Positions 9,422 to 22,847 of a DNA stretch of 26,498 bases are shown here, in pieces. A program made the translations under genes and the position numbers. The stretch is from a virus. Positions within the stretch are counted from its first letter, which is position 1. The number at the start of each line of letters is the position of its first letter. The notes below the pieces were generated by a model. That model was given only the letters and a program-made list of their open reading frames with translations. It did not search any database and was not told the DNA's origin. The stretch spans positions 1 to 26,498 of IMG/VR virus record IMGVR_UViG_3300047476_000140; one strand, written 5' to 3'.

Positions 9422-10042
9422 TTATCCTAAAGTTCTCGCTCTCGCAACCAAAGCCCCGCCTGAAGTAGAGCCACGATCATCAGCAGTTTGCAGGTCTTGC
9501 AACGCTGTCAAATACATTTGCGACCATGTACCAATTCTCGCATCATCCTTGAGATATGGAGCAGCTTGCATCAAAGCACCATAAAGATAGATGTCAGGAG
9601 CAGCGGTCAAAAGCCAGTTGGTCGTGTTGCTATCAGACAGCTTACTCAGCTTCGCGTAGTAAACCAGCTCTGCCGTGTAAGAAGAATCAGCAATCGGCAC
9701 AGTCCTGATCTGACCACCAACAATTGAAAAGAACTGAGGCTTGCCAGAAGATGTGTAGCGAGTGCTTAGATCATCCAATGAGTCAATCGTCTCAAAGCCA
9801 ACTGGAGTGATTGGATTAGTCTGCAACTTAAGAGAACGAGCCTCAAGGAAGTCTGCTGGAACAGCACTATATTCAGAATCAATGGTTGCGGTAGCCCTGA
9901 CAATCATCTGACGGGTACGCAGTCGGCGCTCGACCTGCGCTTCAGCCAATGAAATAAAGTCAGGCACAGCAGAAGTCAGGTCTGAACGATTCAGCCAATC
10001 TGCTACCGATGTCTTTAATTCCGAATATGTGCTGAGTGCCAT
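9422..10042 (-). CDS. Head-to-tail adaptor protein (P22 gp4 / SU10 adaptor-like)
   Basis: A 206-aa protein from ATG 10042 (MALSTYSELKTSVADWLNRS). It has a helical N-terminus, then SLAEAQVERRLRTRQM at about 31-46, a short beta part, and a C-terminal helical region with LYGALMQAAPYLKDDARI. This 'WLNRxDLxxxxPxFIxLAExxxxRxLR' pattern is typical of podovirus adaptors that bind below the portal ring and extend the DNA channel. The ATG overlaps the upstream stop by one base (TGATG), with AGAGG 7 nt before it; a TTG one codon earlier is possible but less likely. The position between portal/capsid genes and tail genes agrees. Confidence 0.8.
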   Translation of the reverse strand: MALSTYSELKTSVADWLNRSDLTSAVPDFISLAEAQVERRLRTRQMIVRATATIDSEYSAVPADFLEARSLKLQTNPITPVGFETIDSLDDLSTRYTSSGKPQFFSIVGGQIRTVPIADSSYTAELVYYAKLSKLSDSNTTNWLLTAAPDIYLYGALMQAAPYLKDDARIGTWSQMYLTALQDLQTADDRGSTSGGALVARARTLG

Positions 10043-10701
10043 CAACTTGCCTCTTTAGCTTTCTCCAAGTCACGCATCACCCAAGTGTGATCGTGCTTGA
10101 ATTCAAAAGTGCCAATATGACCGATCTCTTTCGAGAGGTCATGGTCTATGTAGATTTTAAAGCCAGCAGCACGCGCTTTGCGACAGAAGAAAACATCCTC
10201 TCCAATATAGCCACGCTTATCGGTGCGCCACGGTGTTTCAAACCACGGTTCGCTCAAAGACTCAAACACCTTGCGTGAGATCAGCATGACACCCATGCCA
10301 ATAGACTGCACTTCTTCCAAGCCAGTTGACTCAGGCATCGAGTAGACCAGTTCTGAGTTCATGCCCCTAGCAGTTGGACCTGTCGGCATACGCCTACGCG
10401 CACAGTTGGTTGCAATGATGTCCTCGTTATGAGCCAACAAACGACCAATCATGTCCTGTGGGAATGTCATGTCTGAATCGACAAACAGAACATGGGTACA
10501 GTTTTCACGCATTGCTTCAAGGCACAAGTCAGCACGCTGGTTCTGAATCAATGTTCCCTGATTGATCTTCAAGGCAACAGCGTCAGGTGTGTTGATCGTG
10601 TGATACGCGACCATGTTGACGAGGCAAAAGGTGTAGTTAGCGTGAACCATGTCACGCGCTGGCGTACAGACCGCAATGTAGTTGACTTCTTGCTCTGTCA
10701 T
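10042..10701 (-). CDS. Glycosyltransferase, GT-A fold (family 2-like)
   Basis: A 219-aa protein with a nucleotide-sugar fold. The N-terminus VNYIAVCTPARDMVHANYTF is the first strand-loop. THVLFVDSDMTFPQDMI (about 69-85) holds the metal-binding DxD motif (D75-S-D77). GYIGEDVFFCRKARAAGFKI in the C-terminal third carries an ED pair in the position of the usual catalytic acid of GT2 enzymes. It probably transfers a sugar from a nucleotide-sugar to a phage or host target. The gene overlaps its upstream neighbour (ATGA) and has AGAGGG about 8 nt before the ATG, in the middle of late structural genes, so expression with capsid genes is likely. The acceptor is unknown: a virion protein, host surface sugar or modified DNA base are options. 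Confidence 0.85.
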   Translation of the reverse strand: MTEQEVNYIAVCTPARDMVHANYTFCLVNMVAYHTINTPDAVALKINQGTLIQNQRADLCLEAMRENCTHVLFVDSDMTFPQDMIGRLLAHNEDIIATNCARRRMPTGPTARGMNSELVYSMPESTGLEEVQSIGMGVMLISRKVFESLSEPWFETPWRTDKRGYIGEDVFFCRKARAAGFKIYIDHDLSKEIGHIGTFEFKHDHTWVMRDLEKAKEAS

Positions 10702-13315: not shown

Positions 13316-15538
13316 TTAATAGACCATTCCTTGTGGGTTGATGGGTGGCTGTGCCGCTTGAACCGCTTGCATAACTTGCGCTTGCAACTGTCCTTGCTGC
13401 TTCACAGCCTCTCTGTCAACAGCTTGCATCGCCACAATCTGTGCCGAGTCAATCTGTGTTTGATACTTTAACTCAAGCTCGTACTTCTTGAGTAAGTAGT
13501 CCTGATTCAGTTGATCTCTACGATAGTCATCATCCCGAATCATCTTCTCGCGCTGCAACTCCAGTTCAGCAGCCTTCTTCTGAATGTCAGCCTTGATCGA
13601 CTCAGCCTGAACCTGCGCCAGCACTTCTTCAGGTGTTGGCTTTGGCTGGCTCTGTGGTGGCTTCCAATCGTCAGGAATGTCGCTAAAGTAAGCCGAAGCG
13701 TCCTTCATGCCAGACAGCTCAACGACCTTACGCAAGGTACGCACATACTGTTGTGCAGAAACAACAGGATTCGTTAAACCGTATTGGTTCAGAATCGCCT
13801 CTTGCTTGGCAGCGATCTGCGTCAAGGTGGCAATCTTCTCGTTCACATCGCCATTGCCCAAGGCAATATTGACTGTGACATCCATTGAGTTGTCCCAAGC
13901 GCGGGGGTCGATCTGCACCCACTCGTTACGCAGACGAATCATGCGTGGCTTGTCCTGATGGGTTGTGACCAAGAACAGGATGGTCTTAAACAACTGCTTC
14001 ATGCCTTCAGCCATCAAACGGGCTGTCAGCTCAATGCGACCTTGAGACGCAGAGATCGTGGCGTTCACAGCCGCTTTGGTAGCCGACTGCAAAGCGTCAG
14101 CATTCAAGCCCATAGCCGCCTTGCTCATGCCTGTACGGTCTTCCTTGATCTGGTCGATGTAGTCCAGAACAGGGAATGCAGCTTGACCAACAAAAGGAGT
14201 AGTCAAAGGCTGAACCATGCCAGCAGAACGGGCGCGAATAACAGCGCCTGTCTCGTTGTTCAGCACATCGTCAATATTGACTTGACCCTCAACAATGACA
14301 GTACGGGGGTGAATCGACTGAGCCAAAGAGTCCAAGGTGTTACGAAGCACCTCTGACTTGATCTCTTGCAAGTCGCGTGTGATGTCAAAGATTGAATTCG
14401 CCTCAAGTGGCGATGTGTGAGGCTCTGGGTCGCATGGGAACTCAATAAACGGGATGTAAGAGGCTGGCAGGTTGCGAACCATCTTGTAGCCAGAACCCAA
14501 GAAGCACATCTTGCGAAGCTCGGCAATACCGTCACCGTCATAGTCAACTTTGGCGTAACCCTCAACATACAGCACGCGCTGCATCATTGGGTTGGCGCTC
14601 TCTGTGGGGAATTGCTGGTTGTTCAAAGGCTGACGCGCCAAAGCCTCTTCGCTGTCGTTGAGGTCGGACGAGCCAACATATTCCATGACTTCGTCTTGGT
14701 CGTAACCCATTTCGACCAGCTCCCACACATAAGCCATCTTGCGATGACCAATGAACGGGGAGTCTTGGAAAGACATCGCCTGACGAGACAGCAACAGCTC
14801 TTCAGGTGGCAAGCAAGCCACATGAATACGCTTGTCAGTAATCACTCGCTTGATCTGCACATCGTGCAGCATAGGTTGCGGCATCTGCACCATCTGACCC
14901 GTCATTGGGTCAATCATTGGCTGCATCTGCATTGCGTCTTCGTCAGGGTAGGACACGACAATCTTTGTCTCTGCCTCTGGCTCTTGCATCAGAATCTGCA
15001 AGGTCTGGTCATCCAGCCCTGAATATTCCTCAATGCGGACAGACTCGGTTTCCTCAACCCAAGCCTTCATAATCCCGCACTTACGCACCAGAGCGTCCTT
15101 GAAGGTCGCGTAAGAGATCATGAAACCGTTGTTGTCGTTCTGGAACACATAGTTACAGTAGTCAGTAGCTTGCTGCGCTCCCTTGACATCTTCAGGACCG
15201 CGAGGCATGAACTCGACAACATTCTCAGAACTAAAGAACATACGCATCAGGCTCGGCAACATTGCCGACACCGTGTCGCGCACTTCCATCGCCACGACCT
15301 GCGAACGACCTTCTTCCTCATTGCCGAACGGGTCGCCGCGGTAGTACTCAGTACCACGAGCGCGGATAGGTGACAGGTCTGAGTCAATGTAGGACACAGC
15401 GTCTGTGATCTCTTGACCCATCATCGCCTCAAGCTCGGTGTCATCCATCTTGTTAGGCGCGTTCTCTTCGCTCTCAGGGTCAGCCGCCTCAAGTTGATCT
15501 TCAAGCGCGTCTTCAATCTTCTCTAATAAAGGATTCAT
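13316..15538 (-). CDS. Portal protein (P22-type)
   Basis: A 740-aa protein, close to the P22 portal length. The N-terminus is acidic (DALEDQLEAADPESEENAP), then the portal core: YYRGDPFGNEEEGRSQVVAM at about 65-84, DTVSAMLPSLMRMFF, a long wing domain, and YKMVRNLPASYIPFIEFPCD. The stem/crown region contains DRTGMSKAAMGLNADALQSA. The last ~130 residues are a Gln-rich coiled coil (LELQREKMIRDDDYRRDQLN), matching the barrel of P22-like portals, and end PPINPQGMVY. Twelve copies form the ring through which DNA is packed and ejected. The ATG overlaps the methyltransferase stop as ATGA. Confidence 0.93.
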   Translation of the reverse strand: MNPLLEKIEDALEDQLEAADPESEENAPNKMDDTELEAMMGQEITDAVSYIDSDLSPIRARGTEYYRGDPFGNEEEGRSQVVAMEVRDTVSAMLPSLMRMFFSSENVVEFMPRGPEDVKGAQQATDYCNYVFQNDNNGFMISYATFKDALVRKCGIMKAWVEETESVRIEEYSGLDDQTLQILMQEPEAETKIVVSYPDEDAMQMQPMIDPMTGQMVQMPQPMLHDVQIKRVITDKRIHVACLPPEELLLSRQAMSFQDSPFIGHRKMAYVWELVEMGYDQDEVMEYVGSSDLNDSEEALARQPLNNQQFPTESANPMMQRVLYVEGYAKVDYDGDGIAELRKMCFLGSGYKMVRNLPASYIPFIEFPCDPEPHTSPLEANSIFDITRDLQEIKSEVLRNTLDSLAQSIHPRTVIVEGQVNIDDVLNNETGAVIRARSAGMVQPLTTPFVGQAAFPVLDYIDQIKEDRTGMSKAAMGLNADALQSATKAAVNATISASQGRIELTARLMAEGMKQLFKTILFLVTTHQDKPRMIRLRNEWVQIDPRAWDNSMDVTVNIALGNGDVNEKIATLTQIAAKQEAILNQYGLTNPVVSAQQYVRTLRKVVELSGMKDASAYFSDIPDDWKPPQSQPKPTPEEVLAQVQAESIKADIQKKAAELELQREKMIRDDDYRRDQLNQDYLLKKYELELKYQTQIDSAQIVAMQAVDREAVKQQGQLQAQVMQAVQAAQPPINPQGMVY

Positions 15539-16068
15539 TTTTTGCCCTTTTGCAGAATCACAAACATCGAGTCCACCGCCCTCGGCGTCCTCAAAACCTC
15601 ATCTTGTGGCAATTTTAGGCTTTCCCCGAACTTTGAGAGACGAAATTCCAAGTGCTTCAAGAAAAACCGATCTTCCCAACCCAGATACCAATGCCAACTT
15701 GTGTAATACGCCCACGAATTCTCGTTAAACGCACGCACATGGGTCGGGTCTTGCCACGCCCCAAGGCTCAAGTCATAAGGCACATGGATGTGCATCTCAC
15801 CATCATCAGCCAGCAAGTCCTTGCAATTGGTCATCGCCTTGACCAAATCAGGAATATGCTCAAGCACATCGTTCGCCAGAATCTTGCTGAACATCCCGCG
15901 CTTGACAGGAAACTCGCCCAAACGGGTGACCAAAACACCGTCCCAATACACATTCTGGATGTCAAGACACCAATCAGACTTGACCCTGCGCTCAACATCA
16001 GCGTTGATGCAGTCCTCGCGCCAATCACGGCCACAACCCAAATTAAGAACCAAAGAAGTCTGTGACAT
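15535..16068 (-). CDS. Class I SAM-dependent methyltransferase
   Basis: A 177-aa protein with motif I LNLGCGRDWREDCINADV at about 8-25 (Gly-rich SAM loop plus the acidic residue after strand 2) and ANDVLEHIPDLVKAM at about 65-79, the usual post-II region of type-11-like methyltransferases. GEMHIHVPYDLSLGAWQDPT further along is the strand with the substrate-side loop, and a WHWYLGWEDRFFL aromatic stretch follows. No DNA-methylase NPPY/DPPY motif is seen, so a small molecule, sugar or protein is the more likely target. It overlaps the upstream glycosyltransferase by 26 bp and the portal by 4, implying joint expression. The pair may build or cap a modified sugar. Confidence 0.8.
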   Translation of the reverse strand: MSQTSLVLNLGCGRDWREDCINADVERRVKSDWCLDIQNVYWDGVLVTRLGEFPVKRGMFSKILANDVLEHIPDLVKAMTNCKDLLADDGEMHIHVPYDLSLGAWQDPTHVRAFNENSWAYYTSWHWYLGWEDRFFLKHLEFRLSKFGESLKLPQDEVLRTPRAVDSMFVILQKGKK

Positions 16069-16732
16069 ATTCTGGACGATTAGCCTCTATCCAAGGTCTA
16101 GCCTGTGCGTTCAATGCCTCAACATCAGACCCAACTGTCTGCGAGCCGACATGATGCACATAGCTAGAAGAAACAAAATGACAGTACCCAAGACGATTTA
16201 AGTCAAAGCAGGACACATCGTCCGAGTACCAGTTCAGCGGTCCAAACCTACCATGCGCCCAAGCATCACGCGAGATGTAAGCAAAGATCGGTGCAATCAC
16301 ACCAGCCTCACGAATAAACGACTCGGACTTAAACCGATTCATATAAAGTGGGTCGCCGTCAGGGTTAAACCTAATGTTCTGAGCAGCACGCACAGAATCG
16401 CTACGCGCCGCAACCCAACCGACTTGAGGCACAAACTCCTTAATGATTTCGACATCCTCAAGCAATCGCTGGTAGCTGGTTGGCGTTAAGACAACATCGT
16501 CATTACAGACGATGCAGCCTTGCGCGTACCTCAAAGCGTCATCAATGACTTCGTTGTAGTCATCGCCAAAGTTACGCGCCTCGCCAAAGATCAGTCGGCA
16601 GTTCTCGTATCCACCGATCACCTTCTCAGGACCGCGAAGATAAATAAACGCCTCTGGCGCGTATTGCTTGATTGACTCCAGCAGTACAGGCAACCCCCTG
16701 CCGTGTACTGTGGATATGCAGATAGGTATCAC
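16043..16732 (-). CDS. Glycosyltransferase, GT-A / family 2-like
   Basis: A 229-aa protein: IPICISTVHGRGLPVLLESI at the start is the first strand and helix of the nucleotide-binding fold, RNFGDDYNEVIDDALRYAQG precedes GCIVCNDDVVLTP (about 72-84), where the NDD replaces the usual DxD metal site. RFGPLNWYSDDVSCFDLNRL carries the later acidic pair. The start is GTG, overlapping the upstream stop (GTGA), with no strong ribosome site. It is not closely similar by eye to the other glycosyltransferase at 10042-10701. It pairs with the adjacent methyltransferase. Target unknown: virion surface, host receptor masking or small molecule. Confidence 0.8.
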   Translation of the reverse strand: MIPICISTVHGRGLPVLLESIKQYAPEAFIYLRGPEKVIGGYENCRLIFGEARNFGDDYNEVIDDALRYAQGCIVCNDDVVLTPTSYQRLLEDVEIIKEFVPQVGWVAARSDSVRAAQNIRFNPDGDPLYMNRFKSESFIREAGVIAPIFAYISRDAWAHGRFGPLNWYSDDVSCFDLNRLGYCHFVSSSYVHHVGSQTVGSDVEALNAQARPWIEANRPEYVTDFFGS

Positions 16733-19899: not shown

Positions 19900-19912
19900 A
19901 AGCGTATCAAAA
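19891..19912 (-). repeat. 11-bp direct repeat overlapping the terS promoter -35
   Basis: GCATATCAAAA (19891-19901) and GCGTATCAAAA (19902-19912), plus-strand reading, are back to back and differ at one base. The first covers the -35 box and the second runs into the last codons of the upstream gene. The 11-bp spacing puts both on the same DNA face, as for a regulator site. Confidence 0.45.
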
Positions 19913-20593
19913 CGCCTCTAACGCCCGATTTGATGCCTTCCTGACCATTTTAGAAGTATCAAATACCTTCTTCATCGGTTCACCTTCCAATTCATCCGAT
20001 TTCATGTCATCAAGTCCTGTCTCGCCAGCATGGGGAAACTTCACAGGGTCTTTGTCAAGTCTGACGAGGTTCGCAGTTGGGTGCAAGGCTTTGATTTTCA
20101 TGGTTTCCTTGATGACGGGTGACTCCATGATGACCTCAAGCTCCTGCATCGTCCAGATGTGACGGTTCTGGACATCGGGTCTGAACTGCTGGTACAGCTC
20201 TGCATCGTGCTGCGTCTCGACAACGACCATGACCGACCCGTCTTGCATCTGCAACTCGCAAGCCTTGATCTCTGGCACAGGCTCAACGCCGTGTGCCTCA
20301 GCCCAACGGTCCAACGCTGCATAAGCATTCTTCATCCCTTGGATGGCTTTCTCGAACCTGACCTCATCTCGCTTGACCTGTGCATCGAAGATTCGTTCCG
20401 ACTGTTTCCAGAACTTGATGCGGAACTCGGAATCCACCAACTCGATGACTCGGTTAATACCCCACCGTTTCTCGTGGTTATTTTTTACAACCTTGAGGTC
20501 AATCAACCCTGACCGCATGACTGCCTCAAACGGGTCAATCGGGAAACTTGGTTGCTCGATCTTTTTCAACGCTTTGCTCAGTTTCTTTTGCAT
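19907..20593 (-). CDS. Hypothetical phage protein next to repeat block
   Basis: A 228-aa protein I do not recognise. The N-terminus is basic (MQKKLSKALKKIEQPSFPID), then NNHEKRWGINRVIELVDSEF at about 48-67, a charged helical stretch (SERIFDAQVKRDEVRFEKAI), a small beta-like part (SVMVVVETQHDAELYQQF) and a C-terminal tail ending MVRKASNRALEAF. No membrane span. AAGGA lies 5-6 nt before the ATG. It stands alone between the TTTGTCCC repeat block upstream and the terS promoter downstream. That could suit a regulator or replication factor that binds the repeats, but no DNA-binding motif is clear. Confidence 0.7.
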   Translation of the reverse strand: MQKKLSKALKKIEQPSFPIDPFEAVMRSGLIDLKVVKNNHEKRWGINRVIELVDSEFRIKFWKQSERIFDAQVKRDEVRFEKAIQGMKNAYAALDRWAEAHGVEPVPEIKACELQMQDGSVMVVVETQHDAELYQQFRPDVQNRHIWTMQELEVIMESPVIKETMKIKALHPTANLVRLDKDPVKFPHAGETGLDDMKSDELEGEPMKKVFDTSKMVRKASNRALEAF

Positions 20594-20616
20594 TTTCTTC
20601 CTTTAATACTTTTATC

Positions 20617-20645
20617 TAAATACAAACATCGGACATACGGGACAA
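20617..20645 (-). promoter_or_regulatory. Weak promoter candidate overlapped by TTGTCCC boxes
   Basis: TTGTCC (20645-20640), 17-bp spacer, TATTTA (20622-20617), upstream of the 228-aa gene. Matches are four and three of six. The -35 lies inside one of the TTGTCCC repeat copies, so a protein bound to the repeats would block or modulate it. Confidence 0.3.
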
Positions 20646-20802
20646 GGGACAAGTCTTAAGACACTTGTCCCATTTGTCCCGTTTTTTGTCGGTACAAATG
20701 GAGGGACATTTGTCCCCATTTGTCCCCATTTGTCCCTTCTTTTGCTTAAAAATTAAGCAGATTTCGACCTGTTTTGACTTCCCATTTGTCCCCATTTGTC
20801 CC
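20639..20802. repeat. TTTGTCCC iteron-like repeat block
   Basis: The 7-bp core TTGTCCC occurs nine times in 164 bp. Forward copies start at 20665, 20674, 20710, 20720, 20730, 20786 and 20796, mostly as TTTGTCCCCA with 10-bp spacing. Inverted copies GGGACAAG are at 20639 and 20646. GGGACAAGT at 20646-20654 pairs with ACTTGTCCC at 20663-20671, and GGGACATTTGTCCC at 20703-20716 forms another dyad. The whole 20594-20816 gap has no gene. Such spacing is typical of iterons or cooperative operators. Confidence 0.8.
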
Positions 20803-20816
20803 GCCTTGTGTATTAC

Positions 20817-22847
20817 TTACGGATTAGTCTTGAGTTTTACGACTTTGTCGGATTCATATCCATCATCGTCATTGTTTTCAAAAATAGCCCAACACCAATC
20901 GTTGTACAGCATGACTTTTTTCTTGTGAATTAGGTTGTCAACGCTTCTCGACCATGCCTTTTTGAATGTCTCAGGGTTCACATCAGAGCCTTTTCGAGCC
21001 TTAAATTCTGACTTCCATTGCTCAATTTTTATGCACTTATTACGCATTCCGTTGATGGTTTCCATCGTTCCGAACTGCTTAATTGCAGCGTGCAAAGAGT
21101 CCAGCGCCAGCTTTGTATTAGCGCCGCCACCTGTTCTGTCTGGTGGAACTGGCTGCTTTCTCTGCTGATTGACATCCATTTCCCCGTCCAATTCAAGCGC
21201 CAAGCTGGTCACAGATTCAAAGCCTAGCGCGCTTGTTCCAATGTCCACGGTGACCATTTGGAAGCCCATGCGCTGCCCGTCTTCCCCGTCCTTTTGCTTG
21301 CTGATGTGCAGGATTCCTTTGGGCGCGTCCTCGATTCTTATGATCTCGAGTTCGGTGTCCACAGCGCCTAGCAAGCTGCTGTGACCTCGTAGACCCTTCG
21401 TTGCGTCCTTACCTGCGTGGTGCACGACTAGAAGCGCCGAGTCGTACCGCTGCTGGATTGCACCTGCCGCCGTGATGAAGGCTCCCATGTCCTCTGAAGC
21501 GTTCTCATTGCCACCGCCAAAGGCTCTGGCTAGCGTGTCGATCACGATTAGCTGGAACTGGATGCCTTGAATGGCTTGCAGCTCGTCAATGGCAAGTGCC
21601 AAGTCTTGAATGTCCTGCTGGCTTGATCTCAGGTTTACTTGCCTTCTAAGGAAGTAAACAGGCGCTCCCTGTGGCGTGTCGTGGTGTACTTTGAGCGCCT
21701 TGATACGCGCCCCGATACCGCCGTGACCTTCACCTGCGATGTACAGGACTGCGCCTTGCTGCTTGACTTCCTTGCCTAAGAATGGTCTGGTCGTGGCGAT
21801 GCACTCCGCAATGTCCAGCGCCACGAATGACTTAAATGATGCTGGTGGAGCGTAAAGGGCTACGAAAGCCTTTTTAGGGATAACGCCTTCAATGAGCCAA
21901 TCGACAGGCTCGTCCTTGATGTCATCCCACGCTTCGATCTGGAAGCCTTGCCTGATGGGTTTGAGTTCTTCCTGTGGCTCTGTTGCTTTTTCTTCCTTAT
22001 CTTGAAATCGTGCAGGAATCGTGACCTCATCTTCTGTTGTCACTTTGACTGCGTACTGCTTGACTAGGTCTTGCAGCTTGTTCTTCGTGCCGTTGTACTT
22101 GTGGACATACTCGAATGCGTCTTCCTTGTGTTCCAGCTCGAGGTCAAGTGTCCTGATTGACTTGGCAATGGTCTTGATTGCTTTGGTGGCTTTCTTCGCG
22201 TACTCCCAACCAACCTTGTCGCAGTCAGGCACGATGACGATGTTGAGGTTCACGAAGTATTGGATTGAGTCCTCTGGGAAGGTGGCAGCGCCAACGTGCG
22301 TGGTTGTGGCTGTCATGCCGATGCTTGTCAGCGCGTCCGCTGCCTTCTCGCCTTCTGTGAGGAACACGACCTTGTTCAGTTCTCTGGCTTCTTCTAGTGC
22401 TGGCAGGTTGTACGGTACGATGTTCGCGCCGAGCATCGTGGTGTGTCGTCTGCCTTCGTTGTCCACCTTAAGCAGCTTGTAAGTCTTGCCCTTGTGGTCA
22501 TTTGTCTTGTAACGCTGCTTGATGAACTGCGTCACACCGTCCTCATCTGTGTAGTGCCATTCCTGCTCTAAGGTTGTCTGGATTGGCTTCAGGCTGCTCA
22601 AAGGTTCAGGTCTTGGCTCAAGGTCGGGTAAGAGTCCGAAGTTCTTGATGGCTTCAAAGACATCGTGCTGCTCACACCCACCGTGGCACTTGAACAGCGG
22701 CTTGCCGTCCTCGCCGTCAGAGATAGACAGGCTAGGATTCTTGTCACCGTTGCCTTGCCCGTGTGTAGGTAGCGGGCAACTGGCTAACCAGCCCTGCCCT
22801 GTCCTCTTTGCGTTGCCAAGCGCCTTTGCTATTTGTTCGGCTTGCAT
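20817..22847 (-). CDS. Bifunctional primase-helicase (TOPRIM + RepA-like ATPase)
   Basis: A 676-aa replication protein. A zinc-finger-like N-terminus has C24, H29, C54 and C58 (SCPLPTHG and KCHGGC). TOPRIM catalytic residues appear in LTEGEKAADAL (E165) and IVIVPDCDKVG (D208, D210). A hexameric RepA/AAA_25-type helicase follows, with Walker A APPASFKS at 333-340, Walker B QLIVIDT at 432-438, and the histidine segment LLVVHHAGKDATKGLRGHSS at 473-490. It should prime and unwind phage DNA for a polymerase not seen here. The Walker A lacks the usual first and central glycines. The ATG overlaps the upstream stop (TAATG). The downstream gap carries the repeat block. Confidence 0.9.
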   Translation of the reverse strand: MQAEQIAKALGNAKRTGQGWLASCPLPTHGQGNGDKNPSLSISDGEDGKPLFKCHGGCEQHDVFEAIKNFGLLPDLEPRPEPLSSLKPIQTTLEQEWHYTDEDGVTQFIKQRYKTNDHKGKTYKLLKVDNEGRRHTTMLGANIVPYNLPALEEARELNKVVFLTEGEKAADALTSIGMTATTTHVGAATFPEDSIQYFVNLNIVIVPDCDKVGWEYAKKATKAIKTIAKSIRTLDLELEHKEDAFEYVHKYNGTKNKLQDLVKQYAVKVTTEDEVTIPARFQDKEEKATEPQEELKPIRQGFQIEAWDDIKDEPVDWLIEGVIPKKAFVALYAPPASFKSFVALDIAECIATTRPFLGKEVKQQGAVLYIAGEGHGGIGARIKALKVHHDTPQGAPVYFLRRQVNLRSSQQDIQDLALAIDELQAIQGIQFQLIVIDTLARAFGGGNENASEDMGAFITAAGAIQQRYDSALLVVHHAGKDATKGLRGHSSLLGAVDTELEIIRIEDAPKGILHISKQKDGEDGQRMGFQMVTVDIGTSALGFESVTSLALELDGEMDVNQQRKQPVPPDRTGGGANTKLALDSLHAAIKQFGTMETINGMRNKCIKIEQWKSEFKARKGSDVNPETFKKAWSRSVDNLIHKKKVMLYNDWCWAIFENNDDDGYESDKVVKLKTNP

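Follow-up and report, generated by a model that had tools for sequence, protein, structure and literature searches.

A conserved iteron-like array next to a phage AAA_25 primase-helicase gene as a putative replication origin

Repeat array downstream of the primase-helicase gene

The window, that is, the whole stretch of DNA analyzed here, is the IMG/VR virus record IMGVR_UViG_3300047476_000140, which has a length of 26,498 nt and may be a fragment. According to Pfam and PHROG matches, it has genes for portal and capsid proteins of the SU10 type and for terminase, together with a replication block consisting of a RuvC-like resolvase, an exonuclease, two small proteins, and a primase-helicase. 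Glycosyltransferase-like and methyltransferase-like ORFs are also found among the structural genes (10042-10701 and 15535-16732), as judged only from reading their translations. The 676-aa primase-helicase is separated from a 228-aa ORF by a gap of 223 nt, and both genes are on the minus strand. Terminase genes follow on the same strand, 1 to 3 kb downstream of the repeat array that lies in the gap, with the 228-aa gene intervening before the small terminase gene. The features of this region are as follows.

20817..22847, minus strand: gene for the 676-aa primase-helicase, recognized by Pfam AAA_25, PHROG primase/helicase families, and a RepA profile match
20594..20816, minus strand: putative origin region, from the primase stop to the start of the 228-aa gene, delimited by the ORF boundaries, with a layout kept in about 60 distinct relatives
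20639..20802, both strands: putative iteron array of nine TTGTCCC/GGGACAA copies, defined by their count and their excess over shuffles
20636..20684, minus strand: hairpin, or dyad, made of inverted cores around TCTTAAGA, with a DNA fold of -19 kcal/mol and z of -8.6
19907..20593, minus strand: gene for the 228-aa protein, a conserved neighbor and not a specific binder, being 100% identical in a relative with another core (L068)

An earlier note on this DNA had described seven direct and two inverted copies of a 7-bp core in the gap. We indeed found TTGTCCC starting at 20665, 20674, 20710, 20720, 20730, 20786, and 20796 on the plus strand and at 20639 and 20646 on the minus strand. The number nine holds for this 7-mer; the 8-mer ACAAATGG was present in 6 copies in the gap, and the nine exact copies attributed to TTTGTCCC came down to only 6. 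The 10-bp period ascribed to several copies is exact at 20710/20720/20730 and at 20786/20796 and does not extend to the remaining spacings, which are 9 and 7 bp. Read in the gene direction, the array unit is GGGACAAATG(G), arranged in direct 10-bp steps and inverted pairs. The two dyads that had been pointed out are real, with 20636-20684 folding into the strong hairpin listed above.

The whole record contained 10 copies of TTGTCCC against 3.3 expected, a number reached in 0 of 100 shuffles, and nine of these copies were inside the gap, with a single one in the rest of the record. When the gap was shuffled 1000 times with its dinucleotides preserved, the maximum for any 8-mer was 4 copies, found in one shuffle. 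Away from the block, no stretch of the record had any 8-mer in more than 3 copies. The gap is thus a gene-free region with several direct repeats of one short core, above chance, as expected for an iteron-type origin. The GC skew of the record showed no switch at the repeat block and was uninformative for placing an origin.

Core types and hairpins in near relatives

Relatives were collected in two scans of viral contigs, which gave 80 sequences with the primase and 72 with the 228-aa protein, and about 60 distinct gaps were extracted from them. The order of primase, gap, and 228-aa gene was kept across these relatives. The gap was always present, with several copies of a short core together with inverted copies and usually a hairpin. 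Because de novo EM motif finding mixed registers through overlapping copies, anchored patterns were used instead. The core types in the gaps were GGGACAAAT, TGGACAAAT, CGGACAAAT, AGGACAAAT, GTCTACATAT, ATAGAC/GATAGA, GACGAAT, and GGTCAAAT. Within one gap, most copies shared the core type, so that the copies changed in concert; mixed cores were found in the gap of one relative (L108) and few exact core copies in that of another (L018). Such a concerted change is the trace to be expected if one DNA-binding protein had changed its specificity. The motif search in the record and in its relatives gave good support to the iteron reading of the earlier note, since the core is confined to the gap and not evenly spread, and relatives with the same genes do have repeats at the same place. 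In three relatives (L009, L021, and L024), the gap was 80 to 100 nt longer than in their close relatives, with cores flanking the extra stretch, an arrangement somewhat like that in the window.

In 25 relatives, we compared a hairpin whose arms contain cores. Ninety-one percent of the cells were paired, and 56 of them were compensatory, with changes on both sides. The covariation score was 0.477, compared with 0.174 after shuffling and 0.05 to 0.15 for slid controls, and the inner stem pairs covaried too. The hairpin at 20636-20684 in the window is the probable equivalent of this covarying hairpin. Part of the covariation may have arisen because the arms are proposed binding sites themselves. 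The strength of the hairpin and its compensatory changes would also suit a structured RNA, such as a terminator or a regulatory RNA, with the repeats as by-products of folding. However, an Rfam search of the region gave chance-level matches only (E of 0.6 to 0.8), and no terminator pattern was found on scanning the gap. Moreover, the direct repeats outside the hairpin also change in a concerted way, for which base pairing is no explanation. We therefore regard a structured RNA as highly improbable.

Coupling between the core type and the C-terminal domain

The primase-helicase contains an AAA_25 helicase domain at aa 305 to 482 (Pfam, 1.4e-41). A profile match at aa 338 to 495 to RepA of RSF1010 (1g8y/1nlf/1olo; E of 1.2e-12) places this part in the RepA family, with a predicted RecA fold related to that of the hexameric RSF1010 RepA. 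An SF3 helicase domain was absent, and the domain does not belong to the AAA+ (MCM-like) initiator helicases, its fold being RecA- and RepA-like. In the N-terminal part, PHROG primase families matched aa 94 to 292 and wider, and the closest viral model was annotated as DnaG/twinkle Toprim; Pfam gave no Toprim match in the 676-aa protein. The C-terminal domain was modeled with AlphaFold2 at moderate confidence (pLDDT of 82 to 88 over most of residues 41 to 110 of the fragment). The predicted topology is a helix, two strands, a helix, another helix, and a two-stranded wing. The best structural neighbors of the model were winged helices, including those of ORC1 and Cdc6 (Z of 8.4 to 8.8); the structural search returned many winged helices and no clear family, and a sequence search of the PDB with this domain gave no credible match. 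The features within and around this domain are as follows.

20820..21197, minus strand: C-terminal domain, aa 551-676, a predicted winged helix and the proposed iteron binder, based on AlphaFold2, structural matches, and co-variation with the core
20925..20975, minus strand: predicted recognition helix, aa 625-641, the FKKAWSRSVDNL region, based on the AlphaFold2 model and permutation tests against core type
20594..21170, minus strand: exchangeable cassette of C-terminal domain and array, which differs between otherwise about 95% identical phages

We compared the window with relatives that had either the same or another core. The window and L006 were 98% identical over aa 1 to 540 of the primase and 99% identical in the 228-aa protein, whereas the C-terminal domain was only 55% identical and the repeat-word similarity was 0.05. 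For L005, which has the same core as the window, all three parts were 97% identical, and the repeat-word similarity was 0.97. Along the primase, the identity between the window and the L006 group was about 97% over 550 residues and then fell to 36 to 80%. DNA identity was also profiled in 50-nt steps against L006, L085, L012, L009, and L013. It dropped from about 95% to mostly 26 to 80% at roughly 350 nt ahead of the primase stop codon, stayed low through the gap, and was back at about 95 to 100% at the 228-aa gene; the profile against L005 showed no drop at this place. These profiles indicate that the domain and the array are swapped between phages as one cassette. A further swap was found between L022 (AGGACA) and L025 (GTCTAC), for which the identity was 95% in the N-terminal part and 58% in the C-terminal part, with a repeat similarity of 0.06. 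Exchange of the cassette means that recombination occurs around the array, and the terminase genes are not far downstream, as might be expected if the array were a packaging or recombination site located there by chance. Against this, the conserved 228-aa gene parts the array from the small terminase gene, the pairing of helicase and array recurs in many phages and prophages, and the core type follows the primase domain. We consider such a site very unlikely.

Across the relatives, the partial rank correlation with the repeat words was 0.40 for C-terminal identity (0 of 500 permutations), compared with 0.08 for N-terminal identity and -0.07 for identity of the 228-aa protein. Consistently, when the core was treated as an eight-state class, a minimum of 9 changes was required on the C-terminal tree, while the N-terminal tree required 21 and that of the 228-aa protein 20. 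The domain that would act as initiator is thus linked to the repeats and matches their sequence, as seen by co-variation only, and the likely iteron binder is the C-terminal winged helix of the primase. Part of the coupling could be linkage, as the array adjoins the C-terminal codons; however, the 228-aa gene lies just past the array on the other side and, unlike the C-terminal domain, shows no coupling to the core. In one pair of relatives, the arrays were nearly identical (L067, 8047-8219; L046, 2886-3060), with C-terminal domains that were just 52% identical. Either the domain and the array can be separated, or the domain may have diverged with its recognition residues kept.

The 228-aa protein had been put forward as a possible binder of the array, with the primase mentioned just as a second protein for a binding test, and it is the immediate neighbor, kept beside the array in near relatives. 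This proposal is contradicted by our comparisons, in which the protein was 97 to 100% identical between phages with wholly different cores. The protein of L068 is 100% identical to that of the window and stands next to a gap of the GTCTACATAT type; it therefore cannot be the specific reader of the array. Together with the number of core changes on its tree and the absence of correlation, this leaves the 228-aa protein with almost no probability as the specific binder. The statement that it has no known family was right: no match was found in Pfam, in PHROG, or in the named phages, nor in 50,697 phage records. Its N-terminal half is predicted to be helical and to be accompanied by a small alpha/beta part; the only matches in a fold search were to helical bundles, such as would be expected by chance.

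Within the C-terminal domain, the helix at aa 625 to 641 tracked the core type to a degree not predicted by the remainder of the domain (0 of 2000 permutations). After the large GTCTAC clade was thinned, the result for this helix was 0 of 5000, and no other segment of the domain was convincing. Since relatedness is not fully removed in these permutations, they provide strong support, not proof, for tracking of the core type by this predicted recognition helix. The best single columns were aa 631 and aa 633, and an aspartate at 633 is common to L067 and L046. A code relating the first base of the core (G/T/C/A) to S or Q/Y/D/A at aa 633 was considered as well and is not claimed, the first base being variable among copies within a phage.

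Proposed origin function and arrays after distant AAA_25 genes

In all, the block is probably an iteron array that forms the core of the phage replication origin and is read by the protein encoded immediately upstream. The best reading of the sequences is that of a self-contained replicon, in which a primase and RepA-type helicase fused to a winged helix would bind its own downstream iterons. The C-terminal winged helix would first bind the direct and inverted GGGACAAATGG copies; the left part of the core, which is variable, would be read by its recognition helix, as the co-variation suggests. By analogy with the related RepA of RSF1010, several bound molecules might then gather their RepA-type RecA-fold domains into a ring helicase on the opened DNA. 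Finally, the N-terminal primase-like part could prime on the exposed hairpin or on nearby single-stranded DNA.

Alternatively, the array could be bound by the same C-terminal domain and serve mainly as an operator, or in copy-number or timing control for the downstream genes, rather than as an origin. On their common strand, the 228-aa gene and the terminase genes come after the gap, and repeated sites with 10-bp steps suit cooperative repressors too. However, no sigma-70-type candidate passed a scan of 20500-20950, which leaves the promoter candidate formerly said to overlap one of the copies unsupported. The covarying hairpin and a binder that is fused to a helicase and a primase-like part point to initiation instead. 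In addition, Rhizobium phage 16-3 and Ancylobacter prophages have arrays after the same type of helicase, although the 228-aa gene is unmatched in named phages. An operator or control site is therefore unlikely.

Several known systems resemble this proposed origin. The helicase of P4 alpha is of the SF3 class, and SaPI Rep and SCCmec Cch2 are AAA+ (MCM-like) initiator helicases. P4 alpha combines a primase and a helicase with a winged helix for binding the repeats of the origin, all in one polypeptide (PMC4234260). The primase-helicase of the window is similar in its C-terminal winged helix, as predicted from the AlphaFold2 model and its structural neighbors, and differs in its RepA/AAA_25 helicase with a RecA fold and in having the repeats directly downstream of its gene. 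For SaPI Rep and Cch2, which have been compared with MCM, the C-terminal domain of the helicase recognizes iterons placed right after the helicase gene itself (PMC7581432). The array of the window likewise comes directly after the helicase gene, with specificity apparently set by the C-terminal domain; unlike these proteins, that of the window joins a helicase of the RepA type to a primase-like part, and it is encoded in a tailed phage itself. The oriV of RSF1010 (IncQ) has iterons and stem-loops at the origin (PMC4234260). The window helicase is related to RepA of this plasmid (1g8y); in RSF1010, however, the tasks of helicase, primase, and iteron binding are divided among three proteins (RepA-RepB'-RepC), whereas the window combines helicase, proposed binder, and primase-like part in a single 676-aa ORF, with no separate RepB/RepC arrangement. 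The system in the window would thus work like P4, SaPI, and IncQ and is a member of none of them, judging by the helicase class for P4 and SaPI and by the three separate proteins for IncQ.

In the PLE satellites of Vibrio cholerae, the DNA-binding domain of the initiator co-varies with the origin and is exchanged along with it, and an origin-directed nuclease is thought to be the driver of these swaps (PMC8263062). RepA_N is an N-terminal domain that comes with no predicted helicase or primase (PMC7145576). It is unrelated to the domain studied here, and PLE has two origin types, compared with eight core classes in our relatives. The arrangement was undescribed in the open literature that we searched for the core sequence, for replication of phage 16-3, and for RepA-like/Toprim proteins with iterons.

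We then considered more distant AAA_25 genes. From bacterial genomes, 80 AAA_25 relatives were retrieved in a scan; together with named phages, they provided 84 scorable downstream regions, and a region was scored as having an array if one 8-mer was present in at least 4 copies. An array followed the AAA_25 gene in 34 of the 84 loci; among 1414 control regions located behind other ORFs, the number was 7 (Fisher p of 3e-39, which is indicative only given the non-independence of the loci). About a dozen of the array loci are from Xenorhabdus and represent a single array type, and under the 4-copy rule a majority of the distant AAA_25 genes had no array. The frequency was 28 of 57 for ORFs of at least 600 residues and 2 of 19 for those of less than 450 residues. 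The cores were GCGTGACA in Rhizobium phage 16-3 and ACTACAAA in Roseobacter phage CRP-823. Those in bacterial genomes were AGTGAGGA (Xenorhabdus), GTGGGGGA (Morganella), AACCGGAC (Ralstonia), ACCCGGCA (Halomonas), ACGGGAAA (Accumulibacter), and ATGTCCCG (Ancylobacter). By eye, many of these distant arrays had a short hairpin with an A+T-rich center between inverted cores.

We tentatively suggest that the AAA_25 primase-helicases of phages and prophages may represent a broad and hitherto undescribed class of self-contained replicons in which every helicase gene is followed by an iteron array of its own. Specificity for the origin would reside in a small number of residues within a single recognition helix, aa 631 and 633 in the numbering of the window, and would be changed by cassette exchange, perhaps as an escape from origin-targeting interference or from exploitation by satellites. 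The comparisons assign to this family a role that is concrete and testable and predict an origin next to many such phage and prophage genes, and the eight core classes matched to one helix are a natural series large enough to test a protein-DNA recognition code. The comparisons also indicate that origin and reader have been exchanged as a cassette between phages, as in the PLE satellites (PMC8263062).

Some of the distant loci had features of their own. In Rhizobium phage 16-3, at least 11 GCGTGACA copies in both orientations occupy a 357-bp gap after p101, a RecA-family ATPase (L147, 4151-4522). This stretch is a likely origin in this classical temperate phage, whose record carries no such annotation. 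In the cultured marine Roseobacter phage CRP-823, nine ACTACAAA copies follow the primase/helicase (L145, 4018-4170), and the gene order is the same: nuclease, single-stranded DNA-binding protein, primase, gap, and hypothetical protein. In Halomonas sp. DQ26W (L181), 8 ACCCGGCA copies were found downstream of the helicase, and another 350-nt window of the same locus had an 8-mer repeated up to 13 times.
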